From assembly GCF_008642335.1 (NCBI RefSeq), contig NZ_CP029191.1, positions 5,270,001-5,334,000 on the forward strand: 64,000 nucleotides of DNA, given 5' to 3'. Positions within the stretch are counted from its first letter, which is position 1. The number at the start of each line of letters is the position of its first letter. Shown here piece after piece: positions 17,151 through 31,196 of the stretch. The notes below the pieces were generated by a model. That model ran no database searches, had not been told where the DNA came from, and worked only from the letters and a program-made list of their open reading frames with translations. The position numbers and the translations under genes are program-made. This DNA is from Streptomyces venezuelae (GTDB taxonomy: Bacteria > Actinomycetota > Actinomycetes > Streptomycetales > Streptomycetaceae).

Positions 17151-19955
17151 TCAGCCCTCCGGCGTCTCCACGGCTGCCGCCTTCTTGCGCGTGCGGCGGC
17201 GCGGCGCCGGGGCGGTCGCCTCGGCCTCGGCCGTCTCCGCCGGGGCGGCAGCGGCCTTGCGCGTACGACGTCGGGGCGTGGGCTCCTCCGTCGCCTGAGC
17301 CGGGATCCCGGCCTCGGTGGCGGCGGCCTCCGTGTCCTTGGCCGTGGTCTTGCGCGTGCGGCGCTTCGGCTTCTCGGCTTCGGCGTCGGTCGCGGTGACC
17401 TCGGTGGCGTCAGCCTCGGGTGCCTTGGTGGTGGTTTTGCGGGTGCGTCGCTTGGGCTTGTCCTCGGCCGGGGCCTCGGTGGTGGCCTCGGGCGCGGTGG
17501 CTTCGGCGGGCTTGTCCCCGGTCTTGCGGGTGCGGCGCTTGGGCTTGTCCTCGGCCGGGGCTTCCGCGACGGCTGCCTCGGGGGCAGCAGCCTCGGGTGC
17601 CTTGGCCGTGGCCTTGCGGGTGCGGCGCTTGGGCTTTTCGGCCTCGGCGTCGGTCGTGGTGACCTCGGCTGCGGTGACCTCGGGTGCCTTGGCGGCGGCC
17701 TTGCGGGTGCGTCGCTTGGGCTTGTCCTCGGCCGGGGCCTCGGTCGTGGCCTCGGGCGCGGTGGCTTCGGCGGGCTTGTCCGCGGTCTTGCGGGTGCGGC
17801 GCTTCGGCTTGTCCTCGGCCGGGGCCTCGGTGTCGGCCTCGGGCGCGGACGCCTCGACGGCCTTCTCCGTGGTCTTACGCGTGCGGCGCTTGGGCTTTTC
17901 GGCTTCGGCGTCGGTCGCGGTGACCTCGGTCGCGGCAGCCTCGGGTGCCTTGGCGGCGGCCTTGCGGGTGCGTCGCTTGGGCTTGTCCTCGGCCGGGGCC
18001 TCGGTGGTGGCCTCGGGCGCGGTGGCTTCGGCGGGCTTCTCCGCGGCCTTGCGGGTGCGGCGCTTCGGCTTGTCCTCGGCCGCGGCTTCCGTGACGGCTG
18101 CCTCGGTGGCGGTGGCCTCGGGGGCCTTTTCCGCGGTCTTGCGAGCGCGGCGCTTCGGCTGGTCCTCTGCCGGGGCTTCCGCGACGGTGGCCTCGGGTGC
18201 GGTCGCCTCGGCGGGCTTCTCCGCGGTCTTGCGGGTGCGGCGGCGCGGCTTCGTGGCCGGGGTCTCCGCCTGGGCGGCCGGCGCGGGTGCCTCCGTCTCG
18301 ACGACGGTCGCGGTCCCGGCCGTGGCCACGGCGGCCTCGGACGACGCGCCGGAACGCGTGCGCCGACGACGACGCGGCGTACGCGGCTCGGTCGTCTCGG
18401 CCACCGGGGCGCTCACCTCGGCGGCCGGGGCGCTCGCCTCGACCGTCGCAGCGGCCGGAGCCGACGCGGTGGCCTCAAGCGGGCTGCCGCCACGCGTACG
18501 GCGACGACGACGCGGCGTGCGCGCGGGGCGCTCGCCCTCTGCGGCCGCCGGGCCCGAACGGTCCCTGTCACGGTCCCGGTCGCGGTCGCGTCCACGGTCC
18601 CGACCGCGGTCACGGTCACGGTCGCGGTCCTGCGTACGACCGCCGGAGCGGCCACCGCGGCCGCGGCCACCGGTCTCGCCGAGGTCCTCGACCTCCTCCG
18701 CGCCCAGACCCGCACGGGTCCGCTCGGAGCGGGGCAGCACACCCTTGGTGCCCGCCGGGATGTCCAGGTCCTCGTAGAGGTGAGGGGAGCTGGAGTACGT
18801 CTCTACCGGGTCGTTGAAGCCCAGGTCGAGCGCCTTGTTGATCAGCTGCCAGCGCGGGATGTCGTCCCAGTCGACCAGCGTGATCGCGATGCCCTTGGCG
18901 CCCGCGCGGCCCGTACGGCCGATGCGGTGCAGGTACGTCTTCTCGTCCTCGGGGGACTGGTAGTTGATGACGTGCGTGACGCCACCGACGTCGATGCCGC
19001 GCGCGGCGACGTCCGTGCAGACGAGCACGTCCACCTTGCCGTTGCGGAACGCGCGCAGGGCTTGCTCGCGCGCGCCCTGCCCGAGGTCACCGTGCACGGC
19101 GCCCGAGGCGAAGCCCCGGCGCTCCAGCTGCTCGGCGATGTCGGCGGCCGTCCGCTTCGTGCGGCAGAAGATCATCGCGAGTCCGCGGCCGTCGGCCTGG
19201 AGGATGCGCGAGACCATCTCGGGCTTGTCCATGTTGTGCGCGCGGTACACGAACTGCTTCGTGTTCGCGACGGTCTGGCCCTCGTCGTCCGGCGCGGTGG
19301 CGCGGATGTGCGTGGGCTGCGACATGTACCGACGGGCCAGTCCGATGACCGCGCCCGGCATGGTCGCCGAGAACAGCATCGTCTGACGCTTCGCGGGAAG
19401 CATGTTGATGATCTTCTCGACGTCGGGCAGGAAGCCCAGGTCGAGCATCTCGTCGGCCTCGTCGAGGACCAGGCACTTGACGTGCTTGAGGTCGAGCTTG
19501 CGCTGGCCCGCGAGGTCGAGCAGGCGGCCCGGCGTGCCGACGATCACGTCGACGCCCTTCTTGAGGGCCTCGACCTGCGGTTCGTAGGCCCGGCCGCCGT
19601 ATATGGCGAGGACGCGGACGTTGCGCGCCTTGCCGGCGGTCAGGAGGTCGTTCGTGACCTGCTGGCACAGCTCGCGGGTGGGGACCACCACGAGGGCCTG
19701 CGGGGCCTCGGTCAGCTGCTCGGGCTTGGCGCGGCCCGCCTCGACGTCGGCGGGGACGGTCACGCGCTCCAGGATCGGGAGGCCGAAGCCGAGCGTCTTG
19801 CCCGTGCCGGTCTTGGCCTGGCCGATGACGTCCGTGCCGGAGAGGGCGACGGGGAGCGTCAGCTCCTGGATGGGAAAGGGATTGATGATGCCGACGGCTT
19901 CAAGGGCCTCGGCCGTCTCGGGAAGAATCCCGAGCTCTCGGAAAGTCGTAGTCAG
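17151..19955 (-). CDS. DEAD-box RNA helicase with long basic repeat tail; apparent CTG start
   Basis: 934 residues when read from CTG 19955. The first ATG/GTG in frame (GTG 19763) would remove the Q-motif (NPFPIQE, ~25-31) and Walker A (AKTGTGKT, 47-54), which are encoded upstream in the same frame without a stop. AAGAGG lies 7 nt before the CTG. Other motifs: PTRELC, TPGR, DEAD (165-168), SAT (196-198), the C-terminal RecA domain with FCRTKRTA, HRIGRTGR. After ~residue 450 comes an Arg/Asp-rich stretch (DRDRDRGRDRGRDR). From ~570 to the end there are about 13 copies of a 29-30-residue unit centred on KPKRRTRK, Lys/Arg alternating with Ala/Glu/Pro. The tail should be disordered and RNA-binding. 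The family remodels ribosomal and mRNA structure, often in cold or stress. Confidence 0.9.
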   Translation of the reverse strand: MTTTFRELGILPETAEALEAVGIINPFPIQELTLPVALSGTDVIGQAKTGTGKTLGFGLPILERVTVPADVEAGRAKPEQLTEAPQALVVVPTRELCQQVTNDLLTAGKARNVRVLAIYGGRAYEPQVEALKKGVDVIVGTPGRLLDLAGQRKLDLKHVKCLVLDEADEMLDLGFLPDVEKIINMLPAKRQTMLFSATMPGAVIGLARRYMSQPTHIRATAPDDEGQTVANTKQFVYRAHNMDKPEMVSRILQADGRGLAMIFCRTKRTAADIAEQLERRGFASGAVHGDLGQGAREQALRAFRNGKVDVLVCTDVAARGIDVGGVTHVINYQSPEDEKTYLHRIGRTGRAGAKGIAITLVDWDDIPRWQLINKALDLGFNDPVETYSSSPHLYEDLDIPAGTKGVLPRSERTRAGLGAEEVEDLGETGGRGRGGRSGGRTQDRDRDRDRGRDRGRDRDRDRDRDRSGPAAAEGERPARTPRRRRRTRGGSPLEATASAPAAATVEASAPAAEVSAPVAETTEPRTPRRRRRTRSGASSEAAVATAGTATVVETEAPAPAAQAETPATKPRRRTRKTAEKPAEATAPEATVAEAPAEDQPKRRARKTAEKAPEATATEAAVTEAAAEDKPKRRTRKAAEKPAEATAPEATTEAPAEDKPKRRTRKAAAKAPEAAATEVTATDAEAEKPKRRTRKTTEKAVEASAPEADTEAPAEDKPKRRTRKTADKPAEATAPEATTEAPAEDKPKRRTRKAAAKAPEVTAAEVTTTDAEAEKPKRRTRKATAKAPEAAAPEAAVAEAPAEDKPKRRTRKTGDKPAEATAPEATTEAPAEDKPKRRTRKTTTKAPEADATEVTATDAEAEKPKRRTRKTTAKDTEAAATEAGIPAQATEEPTPRRRTRKAAAAPAETAEAEATAPAPRRRTRKKAAAVETPEG
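17160..18245 (-). repeat. Tandem coding repeat array in the helicase tail
   Basis: Thirteen 87-90-bp units, each encoding R-R-T/A-R-K followed by an acidic Ala/Glu/Pro linker. Units also repeat as triplets of ~261-264 bp (linker types EATTEAPAED, TDAEAE, EAPAED in order), giving a higher-order repeat near 17455, 17715 and 17980. The array looks like recent unequal crossover and should vary in length between strains. Confidence 0.85.
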
Positions 19956-24334: not shown

Positions 24335-25675
24335 GTGGGACGTCACAGCCGCCGGGCTCCGGCAGACGCGACGGACAACACCAGCACCTCGGGCACACCG
24401 GTGTCGCCGATGGTGGGCCCGCAGGCGGGGCCCGGCACGGGACGGCGCAGGCGGGGCCGCGCGGCGGACGGCACTCCGGTGGACGGCACGCCCGCTCATG
24501 GTGTGCCCCGCGCCACCCCGCCCCACGGTGTCCCGCACGTCCGCGGCGGCCACCCCGAGCAGCGGGAGCCCGGCGGCGCCTGGGGCGACACCCCGGGCTC
24601 AAGCACAAGCTCAAGCACCGGTACGGGCCCCGGCCCCCGCATCGTGACCGGCCCCGGCGTCGTCCCCGGGCCCCGCCAGGACTACGTCGCCGCCTTTCCC
24701 GAGGGCCGCAGGCAGGGCACGCAGCCGCCGGAGCCCCGCGACCCGTACGCCTCCGTCACCCAGTGGGACACGGAGGCCGACGGAGGCGACGGCGGCAACG
24801 GAGACGGCGATCTCGCGGACGGCGAGGACGGCGGCGGCAGGAAACGCGGCCGCAACCGCACCATGACCGTCGTCGTGACCGCCGCCGTGACCACCGTGGT
24901 CGCCGTGGTCGTCGCGGGCCAGATGATCGGCGGGGGCAAGAGCCCGGAGCCGCAGACCCGCGCGGCCCCGGGCGGCGATCGCGACACCGAGGACCCCGCG
25001 TCCCGCTCCGACCGCAGGCCCACCCCCGCCGAGGTGCGCAAGGAGGCCCCGGCGACGTACGACGACAAGATGAAGGAGACGTATCCGCTGGACGCGAAGC
25101 TCAAGGCGTCCGGCGACTTCGAGGCGATGGCCGGCTTCGACAAGGCGCCCGGCAAGGGGCAGAAGTTCCGCTACCGCGTCGACGTGGAGAAGGGGCTCGG
25201 TCTGGACGGGAAACTCTTCGCGCAGGCCGTGCAGAAGACCCTGAACGACGACCGCAGCTGGGCCCACAAGGGCGCCCGCACCTTCGAGCGCATATCGTCG
25301 GGCAGGCCCGACTTCGTCATTACGCTCGCGAGCCCGGGAACGACCGGCGTCTGGTGTGCGAAATCCGGTCTCGACACCACCCAGGACAACGTGTCGTGCG
25401 ATTCCGCGGCGACGGACCGCGTGATGATCAACGCTTATCGGTGGGCCCAGGGCGCGCCCACCTACGGCGACGAGGTCAAGAAGAAGTTCGGCAACGCCAT
25501 CCACCCGTACCGGCAGATGCTGATCAATCACGAGGTCGGCCACCGGCTCGGCTTCAACCACACGGACTGCACGAAGAGCGGGGACCTCGCGCCCGTCATG
25601 CAGCAGCAGACGAAGTTCCTGGAGCACGACGGAATCAAGTGCAAGGCCAACCCATGGGCCTTTCCCAAGAGTTGA
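24335..25675 (+). CDS. DUF3152 membrane-anchored, metzincin-like protein
   Basis: 446 residues from GTG 24335. Residues 1-170 are disordered (Pro/Gly/Arg/Asp-rich). One membrane helix lies at ~173-195 (TVVVTAAVTTVVAVVVAGQMIGG). The extracellular C-terminal domain (~240-446) ends in the zinc-protease signature HEVGHRLGFNH (399-409), the HExxHxxGxxH pattern of metzincins, followed by a Met (VMQQQTKFL) that could be the Met-turn. Cys residues before and after (VWCAKSGLD, NVSCDSAA, TDCTKSG, IKCKANP) suggest disulfides. Probably a cell-surface protease of the DUF3152 family; the substrate is unknown. Confidence 0.87.
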   Translation: MGRHSRRAPADATDNTSTSGTPVSPMVGPQAGPGTGRRRRGRAADGTPVDGTPAHGVPRATPPHGVPHVRGGHPEQREPGGAWGDTPGSSTSSSTGTGPGPRIVTGPGVVPGPRQDYVAAFPEGRRQGTQPPEPRDPYASVTQWDTEADGGDGGNGDGDLADGEDGGGRKRGRNRTMTVVVTAAVTTVVAVVVAGQMIGGGKSPEPQTRAAPGGDRDTEDPASRSDRRPTPAEVRKEAPATYDDKMKETYPLDAKLKASGDFEAMAGFDKAPGKGQKFRYRVDVEKGLGLDGKLFAQAVQKTLNDDRSWAHKGARTFERISSGRPDFVITLASPGTTGVWCAKSGLDTTQDNVSCDSAATDRVMINAYRWAQGAPTYGDEVKKKFGNAIHPYRQMLINHEVGHRLGFNHTDCTKSGDLAPVMQQQTKFLEHDGIKCKANPWAFPKS

Positions 25676-25684
25676 GCAGCCGCT

Positions 25685-25713
25685 TTGACATCTGTCGGAA
25701 TTTCGTTCATATT
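25685..25713 (+). promoter_or_regulatory. Near-consensus promoter of the Cys-leader and peptide transporter operon
   Basis: TTGACA (25685-25690), exactly 17 bp, then CATATT (25708-25713). The leader ATG at 25721 starts 7 nt after the -10, so transcription should begin at or next to the A of the ATG. This is the best promoter in the window. Confidence 0.85.
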
Positions 25714-25720
25714 TCTCCGC

Positions 25721-25813
25721 ATGTCGAACCTTCACGCCCCTTCGAGCGCCGCCATTGAGCTGGCGCTCCTCGGCGTGACCGCGCTCTGCGTGGCCGACAT
25801 CCACTGTTGCTGA
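25721..25813 (+). CDS. Leaderless 30-codon leader peptide ending in Cys-Cys
   Basis: ATG 25721 to TGA 25811. The product begins MSNLHAPSSAAIEL and ends ALCVADIHCC, with three Cys codons (TGC, TGT, TGC at codons 23, 29, 30) and the last two directly before the stop. It has no Shine-Dalgarno; the promoter places the mRNA 5' end at the ATG. In mycobacteria, leaderless short ORFs ending in Cys tracts are known cysteine-responsive attenuators of downstream operons. The layout here is the same: the ORF lies 136 nt before a transporter gene whose ribosome site can be paired away. A RiPP precursor is the alternative, but no maturase is nearby. Confidence 0.8.
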   Translation: MSNLHAPSSAAIELALLGVTALCVADIHCC

Positions 25814-25890
25814 CGCCCGCCCCGGCGAGTGCGTCGCTTTTCTCCGGCTCCTGGCTTTTTCCGCGCCCGTGTGCCGTTTTCTCCCGCGCC

Positions 25891-25939
25891 TTTCCCGGGG
25901 TGAGCTCTGTCGCTCCCTTTTCTCACTCATCCCGAGAGG
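25891..25939 (+). promoter_or_regulatory. Hairpin sequestering the transporter Shine-Dalgarno
   Basis: TTTCCCGGGGTGAG (25891-25904) can pair with CTCATCCCGAGAGG (25926-25939): 14 positions with one mismatch and three G-U pairs, loop 21 nt. The right arm contains GAGAGG, the ribosome site for the ATG at 25950. An upstream CCCCGG (25820-25825), just after the leader stop, can pair with CCGGGG (25895-25900) in the left arm and would free the ribosome site. A ribosome at the leader stop would cover that segment; one stalled at Cys23 would not. Confidence 0.6.
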
Positions 25940-25949
25940 TCTCTTTCCG

Positions 25950-27671
25950 ATGCGTCAAACGTCCGTCATAGCCCGCCGCGTGGCAGCGGCATCCGTCAGC
26001 CTGGTCCTGGCCTCGGGCGCCGTCGCCTGCGCGGGCCCCAAGGACGGCGGCGCCGGGAGCGGCGGCGGCAAGCCCGCCGAGGGCGGCACGCTCACCGTCC
26101 TCAACCGCGATCCGCAGACCGACTTCGACCCCGCGCGGCTGTACACCTCCGGCGGCGGCAACGTGCCGAGCCTCGTCTTCCGCACCCTGACCACCCGCAA
26201 CCGCGAGGACGGCGCCAAGGGCGCGGAGGTCGTCCCCGACCTCGCGACGGACCTCGGCAAGCCGAGCAAGAACGCCACCGTGTGGACGTACACCCTGAAG
26301 AAGGGCCTCAAGTACGAGGACGGTTCGGCGATCACGGCCGCCGACATCAAGTACGGCATCGAGCGTTCCTTCGCGGCCGAACTCTCCGGCGGCGCACCCT
26401 TCCTGCGGGACTGGCTGATCGGGGGCGCCGACTACGAAGGGCCGTACAAGAACAAGGGCGGCCTGAAGTCGGTCGAGACGCCGGACGAGCGGACGATCGT
26501 CTTCCATCTGAACAAGCCCGTGGGCGACTTCGACTACGTGGCCACGCAGACGTCGTTCGCACCCGTGCCGAAGGCCAAGGACAAGGGCACGAAGTACGAG
26601 GAGCACCCGGTCTCGTCCGGGCCCTACAAGGTCGTCAAGAACGAGAACGACGGCGAGCGGCTCCGTCTGGAGCGCAACCCGCACTGGTCCGCGAAGAACG
26701 ACGCCGAGCGCAAGGCCTACCCGGACGTCATCGACGTACGGTCCGGGCTCGACCAGTCCGTCATCAACCAGCGGCTCTCCGCGGGCCAGGGCGCCGACGA
26801 CGCAGCCGTCACCACCGACACCAACCTCGGCCCGGCCGAGCTCGCCAAGGTCGCCGGTGACAAGGAGCTCTCCTCGCACGTCGGCACCGGCCACTTCGGC
26901 TACACGAACTACCTCGCCTTCAACCCGAAGGTGAAGCCGTTCGACGACCCGAAGGTCCGCCAGGCCATCTCGTACGCCGTGGACCGCTCCTCGGTCGTCA
27001 ACGCGGCGGGCGGCTCCTCGCTCGCCGAGCCCGCCACCACGTACCTGCCGAACCAGAAGTCATTCGGATACACGAAGTACGACCACTTCCCCGCGGGCCC
27101 CTCCGGCAACCCGAAGAAGGCCAAGGAGCTCCTGAAGGAGGCCGGTCACAAGGACGGGCTCACCATCACGCTCACACACTCCAACGCCAAGGACTTCGAG
27201 ACCAGCCCCGAGATCGCGACCGCGATCCAGGACGCGCTCAAGAAGGCCGGGATCACCGTCAAGCTCCAGGGCCTTGAGGACAACGACTACAAGGACAAGG
27301 TCCACAGCGCCAAGGACGAACCCGGCCTCTTCCTCGCCCACTGGGGTGCTGACTGGCCCTCCGGCGGCCCCTTCCTCGCCCCGATCTTCGACGGCCGGCA
27401 GATCGTGAAGGACGGCGCCAACTTCAACTCCGGCTTCCTCGACGACAAGTCCGTCAACGACGAGATCGACGAGATCAACAAGCTGACCGACCTGAAGGCC
27501 GCCGCCGAGCGGTGGGGCGCACTCGACAAGAAGATCGGCGAGAAGGCGCTGACCGTGCCGCTCTTCCACCCGGTCTACAAGCGCCTGTACGGCAAGGACG
27601 TCAAGAACGTCGTCATCAGCGACTGGACCGGCGTCCTCGACGTCTCGCAGGTCGCGGTGGAGTCGTCGTGA
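25950..27671 (+). CDS. Peptide ABC transporter substrate-binding lipoprotein (SBP family 5)
   Basis: 573 residues from ATG 25950 (GAGAGG 10 nt upstream). Lipoprotein signal with lipobox AVAC at Cys27. The family-5 body is clear: GGTLTVLNRDPQTDFDPARL, LKKGLKYEDGSAITAADIKYGIERSF (the family signature region), FNPKVKPFDDPKVRQAISYAVDRS and LFLAHWGADWPSGGPFLAPIF. Members bind oligopeptides, dipeptides, glutathione, nickel or sugars. The Cys-responsive-looking leader points to a sulfur-containing ligand such as Cys-peptides or glutathione, which is inference. Its stop overlaps the first permease start (GTGA). Confidence 0.92.
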   Translation: MRQTSVIARRVAAASVSLVLASGAVACAGPKDGGAGSGGGKPAEGGTLTVLNRDPQTDFDPARLYTSGGGNVPSLVFRTLTTRNREDGAKGAEVVPDLATDLGKPSKNATVWTYTLKKGLKYEDGSAITAADIKYGIERSFAAELSGGAPFLRDWLIGGADYEGPYKNKGGLKSVETPDERTIVFHLNKPVGDFDYVATQTSFAPVPKAKDKGTKYEEHPVSSGPYKVVKNENDGERLRLERNPHWSAKNDAERKAYPDVIDVRSGLDQSVINQRLSAGQGADDAAVTTDTNLGPAELAKVAGDKELSSHVGTGHFGYTNYLAFNPKVKPFDDPKVRQAISYAVDRSSVVNAAGGSSLAEPATTYLPNQKSFGYTKYDHFPAGPSGNPKKAKELLKEAGHKDGLTITLTHSNAKDFETSPEIATAIQDALKKAGITVKLQGLEDNDYKDKVHSAKDEPGLFLAHWGADWPSGGPFLAPIFDGRQIVKDGANFNSGFLDDKSVNDEIDEINKLTDLKAAAERWGALDKKIGEKALTVPLFHPVYKRLYGKDVKNVVISDWTGVLDVSQVAVESS

Positions 27672-28603
27672 CCGAACGCTCCGTCTTCTGGGGGCGGCTG
27701 CGCGCACAGCGCGCCGCCCTCGTGGCGGCGGGCGTCGTCGCGCTGCTCGTGGTCGTGGCGCTCGCTGCGCCGCTGCTCACCGCCCTGGAGGGGCAGGACC
27801 CCACCTCGTACCACCCGCATCTCATCGACTCGGCGCGCGGCGGTGTGCCGGTCGGCCCGCTCGGCGGGATCAGCGGCGAGCACTGGCTCGGCGTCGAACC
27901 GCAGACCGGGCGCGACCTCTTCGCCCGCCTCGTGTACGGGGCGCGGGTCTCGCTCGGCGTCGCGCTCGCCGCGACCGTCGTACAGGTCGTCGTCGGCGTG
28001 GCGGTCGGATTGGCCGCAGGGTTCGGCAACCGCTGGGTCGACCAGGTGCTCAGCAGGGCCACCGACGTCATCGTGGCCCTGCCGCTCATGGTCTTCGCGC
28101 TCGCGCTGATGGCGGTCGTGCCCAGCGGATTCCCGCGGCCCGTGCTCGTCGCCCTCGTCATCGGGCTCGTCGCCTGGGGCGGCGTCGCCAAGATCGTCCG
28201 CGCCCAGACCATCACGCTCAAGGAGCTCGACCACGTGGCCGCCGCGCGGCTCAGCGGCTGGGGCTCCGTGCGGATCGCCCGCCGTGAACTGCTGCCCGCG
28301 CTCGCCGCGCCCGTCATCACCTACGCCGCGCTCCTCGTCCCCACCAACATCACCGTCGAGGCCGCGCTCTCCTTCCTCGGCGTGGGCGTGAAGCCGCCCA
28401 CCGCGTCGTGGGGACAGATGCTCACGTCCGCCGACGTCTGGTACCAGGCGGCGCCGCAGTACCTGCTGTACCCGGCGAGCGCGCTGTTCGTGACCGTGTT
28501 CGCCCTCACCGTGTTCGGTGACGGCGTGCGTACGGCGCTCGACCCGCGGGCCACGTCGCGGCTGCGGATCGGCGCGGGGCGGAAGCAGGAGGCCCGCGCA
28601 TGA
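27668..28603 (+). CDS. Peptide ABC transporter permease (DppC-like)
   Basis: 311 residues from GTG 27668, overlapping the binding-protein stop by 4 bp. The N-terminal cytoplasmic segment and first helix (ALVAAGVVALLVVVALAAPLL) precede a periplasmic loop with HWLGVEPQTGRDLFARLVYGARVSL, the OppC-type motif. The core has five more helices and the EAA loop LKELDHVAAARLSGWGSVRIARRELLP. The C-terminus has the conserved PTASWGQML. It pairs with the next gene to form the translocation pore. Confidence 0.92.
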   Translation: MTERSVFWGRLRAQRAALVAAGVVALLVVVALAAPLLTALEGQDPTSYHPHLIDSARGGVPVGPLGGISGEHWLGVEPQTGRDLFARLVYGARVSLGVALAATVVQVVVGVAVGLAAGFGNRWVDQVLSRATDVIVALPLMVFALALMAVVPSGFPRPVLVALVIGLVAWGGVAKIVRAQTITLKELDHVAAARLSGWGSVRIARRELLPALAAPVITYAALLVPTNITVEAALSFLGVGVKPPTASWGQMLTSADVWYQAAPQYLLYPASALFVTVFALTVFGDGVRTALDPRATSRLRIGAGRKQEARA

Positions 28604-29598
28604 CCGGCTTCCCCGGGTTCCTGCTGCGGCGCGTCGTCGGCGCCGCCGTCACGCTCCTCGCCCTCTCCGTCATCATCTACGCGGTCTTCTACACCGCCCC
28701 GGGCGACGTCGCCCAGATCACCTGCGGCCCGCGCTGCTCACCCGCCCAGGTCCAGCAGGTCGCCGAGCAGCTGCGGCTCGACGACCCGCTGTACGTCCGC
28801 TACTGGGACTTCCTGCACGGCATCGTCGTCGGCCAGGACTACTCGACCGGCACCGGCACCGAACACTGCGGTGCGCCCTGCCTCGGGATCTCCTACCAGA
28901 GCGACCAGCAGGTCACCGCGCTGATCACGGCGAAGCTGCCGGTCACCGGGTCGCTCGCGCTGGGCGCGATGGTGCTGTGGCTGATCCTCGGGGTGGGCGC
29001 GGGCGTGCTCTCCGCCTGGCGGCGCGGCAGGCTCAGCGAGCGCGTGCTGACCGCCGTCACCCTCGCGGGCACCGCCACGCCCGTCTTCGTGATCGGCCTG
29101 CTCCTGATGATCGTGGTCTGCGGTCAGCTGCAGTGGCTGCCCTTCCCGCAGTACGTGCCCTTCGCGGACGACCCGACGCAGTGGGCGTGGAACCTGCTCC
29201 TGCCCTGGCTCTCGCTGGCCCTCATCGAGGCCGCCAAGTACGCGCGCCTGACCCGCTCCTCGATGCTGGAGACCCTCGCCGACGACCACGTGCGGACCTT
29301 CCGCGCGTACGGCGTGGGGGAGCGGTCGATCATCGGGAAGCACGCGCTGCGCGGCGCCGTCGCGCCCGTCATCGCGCTGACCGCCAACGACTTCGGATCG
29401 ATGTTCGGCGGCGCGGTGCTCAGCGAGACGCTGTTCGGCCTGCCCGGACTCGGGCGTGAACTCGTGCACGCCGTCAAGGTCGTCGACCTGCCGGTGGTCG
29501 TCGGGATGGTCCTCGTCACCGGCTTCTTCGTGGTGCTCGCCAATGCCGTCGCGGACGTGCTGTACGCGGTGGCCGACCGACGGGTGGTGCTGTCATGA
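28600..29598 (+). CDS. Peptide ABC transporter permease (DppB-like)
   Basis: 332 residues, ATG 28600 overlapping the previous stop (ATGA). OppB-type start: LLRRVVGAAVTLLALSVIIYAVFYTAPGDVA, followed by a long external loop with four Cys (TCGPRCS, EHCGAPCLG) that is unusual for the family and may be disulfide-bonded. The EAA loop is LADDHVRTFRAYGVGERSIIGKHALRGAVAP. In most dpp/opp operons the B permease precedes C; here C comes first. Confidence 0.92.
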   Translation: MTGFPGFLLRRVVGAAVTLLALSVIIYAVFYTAPGDVAQITCGPRCSPAQVQQVAEQLRLDDPLYVRYWDFLHGIVVGQDYSTGTGTEHCGAPCLGISYQSDQQVTALITAKLPVTGSLALGAMVLWLILGVGAGVLSAWRRGRLSERVLTAVTLAGTATPVFVIGLLLMIVVCGQLQWLPFPQYVPFADDPTQWAWNLLLPWLSLALIEAAKYARLTRSSMLETLADDHVRTFRAYGVGERSIIGKHALRGAVAPVIALTANDFGSMFGGAVLSETLFGLPGLGRELVHAVKVVDLPVVVGMVLVTGFFVVLANAVADVLYAVADRRVVLS

Positions 29599-31196
29599 GT
29601 CTCGTCCACGTCACCGATCTGTCCGTCGAGTTCGCGTCCGGCGTACGTGCCGTGGACGGGCTCTCCTTCACGCTGGAGAAGGGCGCCGCCCTCGCCCTCG
29701 TCGGCGAGTCGGGATCCGGCAAGTCCACCGTGGCGTCCGCGCTCCTCGGCCTCCACCGGGGCACGGGCGCGCACGTCGACGGGACGGTGCTGGTCGACGG
29801 CGTCGACGTACAGGCGGCGTCCGAGGCGGAACTGCGCGGGCTGCGCGGCGGAAAGGCCGCGATGGTCTTCCAGGACCCGCTCTCCTCGCTCGACCCGTAC
29901 TACGCGGTCGGCGACCAGATCGCCGAGGTGTACCGCGTGCACACGGGAGCGTCCCGACGGGCGGCACGCGCGCGTGCCGTCGACGTGCTCGACCGGGTCG
30001 GCATTCCCGACGCGGCCCGCCGCTCCCGCTCACGGCCGCACGAGTTCAGCGGCGGCATGCGCCAGCGCACCCTGATCGCCATGGCGTTGGCGTGCGAGCC
30101 CGCGCTGCTCGTCGCCGACGAGCCGACCACCGCGCTCGACGTCACCGTCCAGGCCCAGATCCTCGACCTGCTGCACACGCTGCGGACCGAGACCGGCATG
30201 GGCCTGCTCCTCGTCACCCACGACGTGGGCGTCGCGGCGGAGAGCGCCGACGAGGTCCTGGTCATGCGCAACGGGCGCGCGGTGGAGCGCGGCGAGGTGC
30301 GGGACATCCTCGGCGCGCCCCGTGAGGCGTACACGCAGGAACTCCTCAAGGCCGTGCCCCGGGTGGACGCGCCGCTCGTGCCGGCCGCCGGGGAGCCGGG
30401 CGAGGTCGTGCTCGAAGCGGTCGGGCTGCGGAAGGAGTTCGGGCGCGGGAAGCGCGCGGTCACCGCCGTCGACGACGTCTCGCTGACCGTCCGCCGCGGA
30501 GAGACCCTCGGCGTGGTCGGCGAGAGCGGCAGCGGCAAGACCACGCTCGGGCGCATGCTGGTCGGCCTCCTGGCACCCACCGCCGGGCAGCTCCTCCACG
30601 GGGGTGCGGAGAAGCCCGGCGGGCAGGTGGTGCCCGGCGTGCAGATGGTGTTCCAGGACCCGGTCTCCTCCCTGAACCCGCGGCGCTCCGTCGGCGAGTC
30701 GATCGCCGACCCGCTGCGCGCACGGGGCGAGAGCGACTCCTACGTACGGGGGCGCGCACGGGAACTCCTGGAGCGCGTCGGCCTCGAACCGGCGCACTAC
30801 GACCGCTACCCGCACGAGTTCAGCGGCGGACAGCGCCAGCGCGTGGGCATCGCGCGGGCGCTCGCCGGCGAGCCGCGCCTCATCGTGTGCGACGAGCCGG
30901 TGTCGGCGCTCGACGTGACGACCCAGGCGCAGGTCATGGATCTCCTCGCCGAGCTGCAGCGCGAACTGGGCCTCGCCCTGGTCTTCGTCGCACACGACCT
31001 CGCCGTGGTCCGCCAGGTCAGCGACCGGGTCGCCGTGATGCGGCAGGGGCAGATCGTGGAACAGGGCCCCGTCGCGGAGGTGTACGGCGCGCCCCGTGAC
31101 CCGTACACGAAACGGCTGCTCGCGGCCGTGCCCGCGCTCGACCCCGAGGCCGCGGCGCGGCGGCGTGCGGCCCGCGAGGAGCTGGCCGCAGCCTGA
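29595..31196 (+). CDS. Fused DppD-DppF-type ABC ATPase
   Basis: 533 residues with two complete nucleotide-binding domains in one chain, ATG 29595 overlapping the permease stop (ATGA). Domain 1: Walker [10 protein letters not shown] (37-45), signature FSGGMRQR, Walker [13 protein letters not shown]. Domain 2: Walker [10 protein letters not shown] (~310-318), signature FSGGQRQR, Walker [13 protein letters not shown]. Oligopeptide C-terminal extensions follow each domain ([16 protein letters not shown] and [16 protein letters not shown]). Both sites look active. It powers uptake through the two permeases. Confidence 0.95.

Follow-up and report, generated by a model that had tools for sequence, protein, structure and literature searches.

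Upstream of the genes for an Opp-type peptide importer in Streptomyces is a short open reading frame (ORF) that we propose, with moderate confidence, to be a cysteine-responsive, ribosome-stalling leader. A ribosome stalled at its penultimate codon, Cys29, would block a hairpin (H1) at the end of the leader that otherwise reduces transcription into the importer genes. Comparison of the leader with its relatives brings out membership of a known leader peptide family, a constant promoter-to-ATG layout, an invariant UGU cysteine codon together with an invariant UGA stop codon, and a hairpin that is above chance in the relatives and is followed by a U-rich tail.

A predicted leaderless ORF behind a conserved promoter

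The DNA analysed (the window, a stretch of 64,000 nucleotides) is part of an 8.05 Mb genome of the genus Streptomyces. A gene encoding a DUF3152 protein (24335-25675) precedes the promoter, the leader and the importer genes. The leader region contains the following:

25685..25713, + strand: promoter, with TTGACA at 25685-25690, a 17-nt spacer and CATATT at 25708-25713
25721..25813, + strand: leader ORF of 30 codons, leaderless by its layout, Ms4533A family NF042937
25787..25789, + strand: Cys23 codon TGC, the stall site suggested in the first-pass annotation
25805..25807, + strand: Cys29 codon TGT, the proposed sensing codon

The Cys30 codon (25808-25810) and the stop codon TGA (25811-25813) complete the ORF. 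The promoter, the ORF, the three Cys codons and a CCCCGG at 25820-25825 had all been described in the first-pass annotation, and each is found where it was placed. The gap between CATATT and the ATG is 7 nt, and the predicted start point coincides with the leader ATG at 25721. This is the only promoter-like match in 25600-26000 (10/12, with a mean of 0.0 in shuffles), and the combination of promoter and ORF is beyond chance. Among 127 distinct Streptomyces leaders TTGACA is matched 6/6 in 107 and CATATT 6/6 in 96, with a promoter-to-ATG gap of 6-7 nt (gaps of 5-9 searched). The available portion of the S. lividans annotation gives a -10-to-start distance of 4-9 nt and 17% of transcripts as leaderless (PMC8079986), and because of these values transcription is expected, by analogy, to start on the leader ATG. 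A search of 25400-26200 against the Rfam 15 families gave no match up to E = 1.

The leader peptide scores 48.7 bits against NF042937, 'Ms4533A family Cys-rich leader peptide' (cut-off 31, model positions 1-30), and is the only match over cut-off in this genome. The family is named after a mycobacterial gene, which bears out the parallel drawn earlier with mycobacterial leaderless polycysteine ORFs. As the locus belongs to a family already in NCBIfam, NCBI annotation may already name the leader.

Some related binding protein is present in all of 199 Streptomyces genomes, and a clear orthologue group comprises 93 of these, our own genome included (identity of at least about 73%, against 45% for the next match). 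Upstream DNA from the 92 other orthologue genomes, 44 loci from named genomes and the window itself make up a set of 137 sequences, in which the same species may occur in both source collections. The strict leader pattern is found in 132 of the 137, giving the 127 distinct leaders, all upstream of importer orthologues; of the five sequences outside the pattern, four contain variant leaders in which TGT occupies the corresponding position, and one (L130) has no leader. One locus (L057) has no recognisable gene start and was dropped from the fold tests, leaving 126 loci. Among the Streptomyces genomes listed in both searches, orthologue and leader go together: both are present in six genomes and both are absent from the other five.

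A class-wide search with NF042937 at E up to 0.01 matches 30 of 296 genomes (25 over cut-off) in 5 of 114 genera, and all 17 matching genomes outside Streptomyces were inspected. The main family among these (f4) appears to be the Mycobacteriaceae. By likeness, a sulfate-type binding protein is encoded downstream of 13 of the 17 leaders, and both of the downstream proteins tested (L156 and L171) pass TIGR00971; a sulfatase is downstream of one further leader (L178).

The Streptomyces peptides have the consensus ELALIGV....VADI.C, of which LAL..V.....VAD recurs in most members outside the genus. This conservation of positions other than cysteine is what would be seen if the peptide itself, and not the supply for a Cys codon, arrested the ribosome. 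However, third positions are biased too (GAG 118/118, GCG 117/118, GTG 124/127), such that the conservation may lie partly at the RNA level, and the penultimate Cys is encoded by UGU without exception. We consider an arrest peptide distinctly unlikely.

The importer and its sulfur context

Profile and model comparisons identify four importer genes downstream of the leader:

25950..27671, + strand: binding protein, lipoprotein-like, SBP_bac_5 (oligopeptide/nickel type), by profile match
27512..28603, + strand: OppC-type permease (ORF as listed), by profile match
28600..29598, + strand: OppB-type permease, by profile match
29595..31196, + strand: fused double ATPase of the transporter; the nearest NCBIfam models are GsiA and YejF, both below cut-off

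Scores of the four proteins fall short of the equivalog cut-offs (in parentheses) of the GsiABCD glutathione importer, at 93.4 (594) bits for GsiB, 521 (1077) for GsiA, 184 (463) for GsiC and 187.5 (484) for GsiD. The best solved relative of the binding protein by sequence is clavulanic acid oligopeptide-binding protein 2 (2wok).

Searching this genome for a second type of leader, NF042934 (cis_reg_atten), gives eight hits with an E of 0.1 or less, of which six are over cut-off. Downstream of these leaders are genes for a sulfatase, a cysteine synthase, a cysteine dioxygenase, a nitrite/sulfite reductase family protein and a sulfurtransferase, as well as for an SsuC/TauC-like permease, a dicarboxylate-type symporter and a flavin reductase; several of these proteins score below NCBIfam equivalog cut-offs. 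Since most of the NF042934 neighbours are sulfur genes, leader-based control by cysteine is probably general in this genome. Cysteine control of the leader in the window is itself well supported by sequence comparison, because it is a member of NF042937, members outside the genus have a sulfur-gene context and the genome contains the eight NF042934 leaders. It is a fair inference that the importer carries sulfur-containing peptides, because its leader is of a conserved cysteine type whose members outside the genus mostly precede sulfur genes; the NF042934 context supports a sulfur role for the importer without proving it.

Leader genes have also been proposed to increase downstream expression, as put forward in the accessible part of PMC4833913, and the ORF could accordingly do no more than raise basal translation of the operon, with no regulation. 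The family membership and the sulfur-gene context run against such a role, as does the invariant UGU codon, and we regard it as very improbable.

The proposed sensing cysteine is encoded by UGU

The penultimate residue (position -2, Cys29 in the window) is Cys in all 127 leaders, as the pattern required, and likewise in the four variant leaders. Position -8 (Cys23 in the window) varies, with 88 Cys, 30 Ser and 9 Ala, and so does the final residue (94 Arg, 24 Cys, 8 Ser and one Leu). All 127 leaders end in UGU-codon-UGA, with CGC as the last codon in each of the 94 ending in Arg. The terminal Cys-Cys of the window is thus not typical, as 94 of the 127 end Cys-Arg, 29 have a single Cys, and 101 have only one or two Cys codons. 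Stalling had been assigned to Cys23 in the first-pass annotation, and this position is rejected as the stall site for its lack of conservation (88/127, against 127/127 for Cys29); of the terminal Cys pair to which it also drew attention, alignment of the relatives upholds Cys29 and not the last Cys (24/127).

The pattern left the codon at Cys29 free, and it is TGT in 127 of 127 leaders, whereas Cys at -8 is TGC in 83 of 88 (Fisher p = 4e-54). TGT accounts for 48 of 498 Cys codons in genes of at least 250 codons at the same loci and for 6 of 42 in twelve genes of the window, and its share in neighbouring genes is about 10-17%. Common descent alone fails to explain the invariant TGT because synonymous sites close by vary: Ile at -4 is ATC in 69 and ATT in 45, Val at -7 is GTG in 78, GTC in 32 and GTA in 14, and Gly at -13 is GGC in 100 and GGT in 27. 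Outside Streptomyces, each of the 17 NF042937 members has at least one tail Cys encoded by TGT (34 TGT and 6 TGC in total), compared with 8 of 40 Cys codons in the neighbouring genes.

The same preference is seen in NF042934. Among its leaders in 13 Streptomyces genomes, 85 of 87 use TGT for the conserved Cys, a count that leaves out 6 of 93 loci not matching the pattern, and the other leader Cys codons are 13 TGT and 75 TGC (p = 6e-33). Outside Streptomyces all 22 leaders counted, from 17 genera, likewise have TGT at the conserved Cys; these derive from 29 loci, of which 4 were unmatched and 3 were from Streptomyces, and they are the best-scoring loci only, from 60 genomes of which 43 had a match. 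The other Cys codons in these leaders are 11 TGT and 30 TGC, and the genes neighbouring the 25 matched loci use TGT at 11 of 64 (p = 1e-12). The leaders are related and the p values therefore overstate the case, the number of separate loci and genera being the stronger argument.

Two tRNA-Cys genes of differing sequence are present in this genome, both with anticodon GCA (at the loci covering 68 tRNA matches). Three of the 68 matches have no anticodon at default settings; with relaxed settings one is a tRNA-Gly and the other two are still without a call. By the wobble rule a GCA anticodon reads both UGU and UGC. A sulfur-dependent modification of tRNA-Cys, such as ms2i6A37, might affect UGU more than UGC. 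Codon bias in attenuators has been explained by selective charging of isoacceptors that read different codons (PMC1183508, from the part available). This theory cannot separate UGU from UGC here, because GCA is the only tRNA-Cys anticodon found.

A plausible scenario is that cysteine sensors of the Actinobacteria follow a codon rule, in which two unrelated leader families, over many genera, nearly always encode the sensing Cys by the rare, wobble-read UGU and their other Cys residues mostly by UGC, and in which sensing operates through slower G-U decoding or through a sulfur-dependent modification of tRNA-Cys. We see the case for and against such a rule as about evenly balanced. If it is true, a synonymous change of UGU to UGC would keep the peptide and should weaken or abolish the response, and with the modification reading UGU would report on both cysteine supply and sulfur state. 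The rule also offers a clean test of attenuator codon choice where isoacceptors cannot differ, and as a simple DNA signature UGU could help to separate cysteine leaders from chance short ORFs. We note a small hairpin inside the ORF, GACA-N5-UGUC, predicted by RNAalifold, that could explain UGU in NF042937; we have not adopted it as the cause.

Neither these Streptomyces leaders nor a UGU rule came up in the literature searched, which is weak evidence of absence as subscription journals lie largely outside the search. As far as these listings reach, three points are new: the UGU rule, the stop-codon hairpin and the connection with a peptide importer.

A hairpin overlapping the leader stop codon

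Two adjoining elements are found at the end of the leader:

25809..25837, + strand: hairpin H1, overlapping the last codon and the stop codon, -13.8 kcal/mol, with CCCCGG (25820-25825) as its tip
25838..25845, + strand: U-rich tail TTTTCTCC, terminator-like, directly after H1, from the terminator scan

Around the leader stop codon (-9 to +35), the RNA of the 126 loci folds more stably than dinucleotide shuffles (mean z -2.02, with z < -2 in 50%), and the GA of the stop codon is paired downstream in 117. Non-coding pairs at +1 to +6 are of several types (at +2, for example, GC in 94, CG in 8 and AT in 7), these counts being taken from the folds themselves. T makes up 0.389 of the 12 nt that follow H1, compared with 0.225 in the rest of the spacer, and TTTT is present in 27 of 117 H1 tails against 4% of background 12-mers; the other 90 are without TTTT, and the U tails are short. 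In the window, the terminator scan finds two sites in 401 nt, against a mean of 0.4 in shuffles, and 25823-25836 plus tail is one of them. At the same place outside Streptomyces the mean z is -1.43 (n = 17), with 11 values below -1, 5 below -2 and 3 positive. The importer orthologues are not independent samples.

H1 in the window alone is no more stable than shuffles (z of -0.12, 0.05 and -0.34). By the classical test for an attenuator terminator, H1 with TTTTCTCC is thus above chance in the relatives but not in the window itself. Because the loops vary, H1 was missed by a MAFFT and RNAalifold consensus fold of its region and was assessed by single folds and shuffles instead. NF042934 leaders have no hairpin at the leader end (mean z -0.42, n = 87), so cysteine leaders as a class can do without H1.

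These features suggest how the leader could operate. The mRNA would begin at the leader AUG. With Cys-tRNA plentiful, the ribosome would pass the presumably slow UGU at Cys29, terminate one codon further on and leave, whereupon H1 (25809-25837, overlapping the stop codon and followed by UUUUCUCC) could form and lower transcription into the importer genes. With Cys-tRNA short, the ribosome would wait with UGU in its A site and cover the left arm of H1, such that H1 would not form and the importer would be made. We take a ribosome with UGU 25805-25807 in the A site to cover to roughly 25816-25817, which is the left arm of H1, and H1 is favoured as the target because a ribosome at UGU would cover this arm.

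Transcription could alternatively be stopped by Rho, acting on a free C-rich, G-poor spacer after termination at UGA, with a ribosome at UGU covering the entry site. Spacers have a mean pyrimidine content of 0.63 (above 0.6 in 84% of the 126 loci), and C exceeds G in 126 of 126; in the window the pyrimidine content is 0.72 over 25814-25930, and its first 100 nt (0.69) rank within the highest 0.2% of + strand stretches of that length. Rho has been suggested for mycobacterial cys leaders in a prediction called weak (Seliverstov et al. 2005, PMC1262725, in the sections available). Against this, the C-over-G skew of the window spacer is ordinary, about 10% of stretches being as high, and H1 and its U-rich tail are left unexplained. 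We consider Rho-dependent attenuation somewhat unlikely.

The spacer and the importer ribosome binding site

Two further elements are present between H1 and the binding protein gene:

25894..25908, + strand: conserved non-coding block CCCGGGGTGAGCTCT, which contributes to the left arm of the helix in the first-pass annotation and complementary to the tip of H1
25934..25939, + strand: ribosome binding site GAGAGG of the binding protein, by sequence, conserved among close relatives

Three non-coding stretches are conserved in 20 chosen close relatives: H1, a block resembling CCCGGGG(Y)(S)AGCTCT, and CCGAGAGG. Palindromes are also seen in the spacers, with GACGTC in 38 and GAGCTC in 6 of the 126; other GC-rich palindromes, such as CCCGGG (46) and TCGCGA (43), have similar counts.

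The first-pass annotation had proposed a translational switch, in which a 14-nt helix (25891-25904 with 25926-25939) over GAGAGG is opened on leader stalling through pairing of CCCCGG with CCGGGG. The helix is indeed present and includes GAGAGG, all of which is paired, the outer part of the helix being shifted slightly in register (25888-25894/25934-25940 plus 25897-25904/25926-25933, -19.4 kcal/mol). The CCCCGG competitor is complementary to the conserved block at about 25895-25900 but is not free, as it sits in the tip of H1. The conservation of the block at 25894-25908 and of the ribosome site, besides H1, and the capacity of the block to pair with the H1 tip are consistent with such a switch, and translational attenuation has been reported for mycobacterial leaders, as described in the available parts of PMC9031893 and PMC13236596.

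Across the relatives the helix is nevertheless at chance level. In the window it has a z of -1.49, with 18 of 200 shuffles folding as well, and over 126 loci the ribosome-site region has a mean z of -0.03, with z < -2 in 2%. Shuffling the spacers makes no difference to how accessible the ribosome site is (0.175 vs 0.187 with shuffled spacers, p = 0.16, for 63 of the 126 loci), and masking the leader to 3 nt past the stop codon does not open the site (mean change -0.015 over 126 loci, with accessibility up by more than 0.1 in 6 and down by more than 0.1 in 17). A conserved switch at the ribosome-site helix is rejected at the level of these tests of z, accessibility and masking; translational attenuation, with Rho the main rival of the H1 reading, may escape equilibrium folding, and we judge it unlikely. 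An alternative 1:2/2:3/3:4 switch of our own was not borne out in a partition-function test. What endures of the first-pass reading is a conserved cysteine leader with a leaderless layout, and its Cys23 stall, terminal Cys-Cys, ribosome-site switch and free CCCCGG give way to stalling at Cys29 and H1 as the preferred reading.

Comparison with known systems

The available portion of the S. lividans annotation contains eight leader peptides, none of them there termed cysteine-dependent (PMC8079986). Seliverstov et al. 2005 describe cys leaders in Mycobacterium, P. acnes and B. longum that, like ours, are short Actinobacterial ORFs with Cys codons near the stop, in their case before cys operons; they differ in being without conserved terminator hairpins, and no Streptomyces cys leader is named in the parts of that paper available (PMC1262725).

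The NF042934 leaders (HVDLxRxxSxxC) occur in the same genome, mostly adjoin sulfur genes and have UGU at the conserved Cys, but they encode a different peptide, with 0-7 residues between the conserved Cys and the stop codon, and have no end hairpin. The attenuators of E. coli and Salmonella are alike in that a ribosome held at regulatory codons sets the choice of RNA structure and in that the codons are biased; their bias reflects isoacceptors, whereas here only a GCA tRNA-Cys was found (PMC1183508, as far as available).

The closest parallel is with Ms4533A and the other polycysteine leaders, which share the NF042937 family, the leaderless layout (predicted for ours), Cys codons at the very end and members mostly before sulfur genes. 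Translational attenuation by Ms4533A and other polycysteine leaderless short ORFs of mycobacteria was reportedly found by Canestrari et al. 2020 (doi 10.1111/mmi.14498). The Streptomyces leaders differ in that their target is an Opp-type peptide importer, in that 101 of 127 have one or two Cys and no run, and in having a terminator-like hairpin over the stop codon, a conserved ribosome-site helix being unsupported. Cysteine control by leader peptides would thereby extend to a peptide importer of Streptomyces, providing a testable hint as to its substrate.

Additional candidate cysteine leaders and associated features

Among leaders of the Ms4533A type (NF042937), which in Streptomyces usually end in TGT-CGC and a stop codon, those at two loci (L113 and L114) retain TGT-CGC, lack the stop that normally follows it and extend in frame for several codons. 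An NF042937-like leader in a host from another family of the class (L178) scores 29.9 bits, slightly under the cut-off of 31 bits, and is followed downstream by a sulfatase gene. The spacer between the leader ORF and the binding-protein gene includes a conserved non-coding block resembling CCGGGG(Y)(S)AGCTCT, at 25894-25908 in the window and at equivalent positions in relatives, which in many relatives has GACGTC instead.

The window also contains an ORF, taken by eye for a DEAD-box helicase, with a long array of KRRTRK-type repeats at its C-terminal end:

17151-19763, minus strand, DEAD-box helicase-like ORF

The same genome encodes eight leaders of the unrelated cysteine leader family NF042934 (L183-L190), two of them under the cut-off, with mostly sulfur genes downstream; the conserved Cys codon is TGT in all eight. 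Its two tRNA-Cys genes (L317, 1614-1687, and L344, 97-169) share the anticodon GCA and have clearly unlike bodies.

The Streptomyces lividans metNIQ leader is labelled methionine-dependent in the leader-peptide table of PMC8079986; the sequence listed there has three Cys close to its end, and it may be a cysteine leader.
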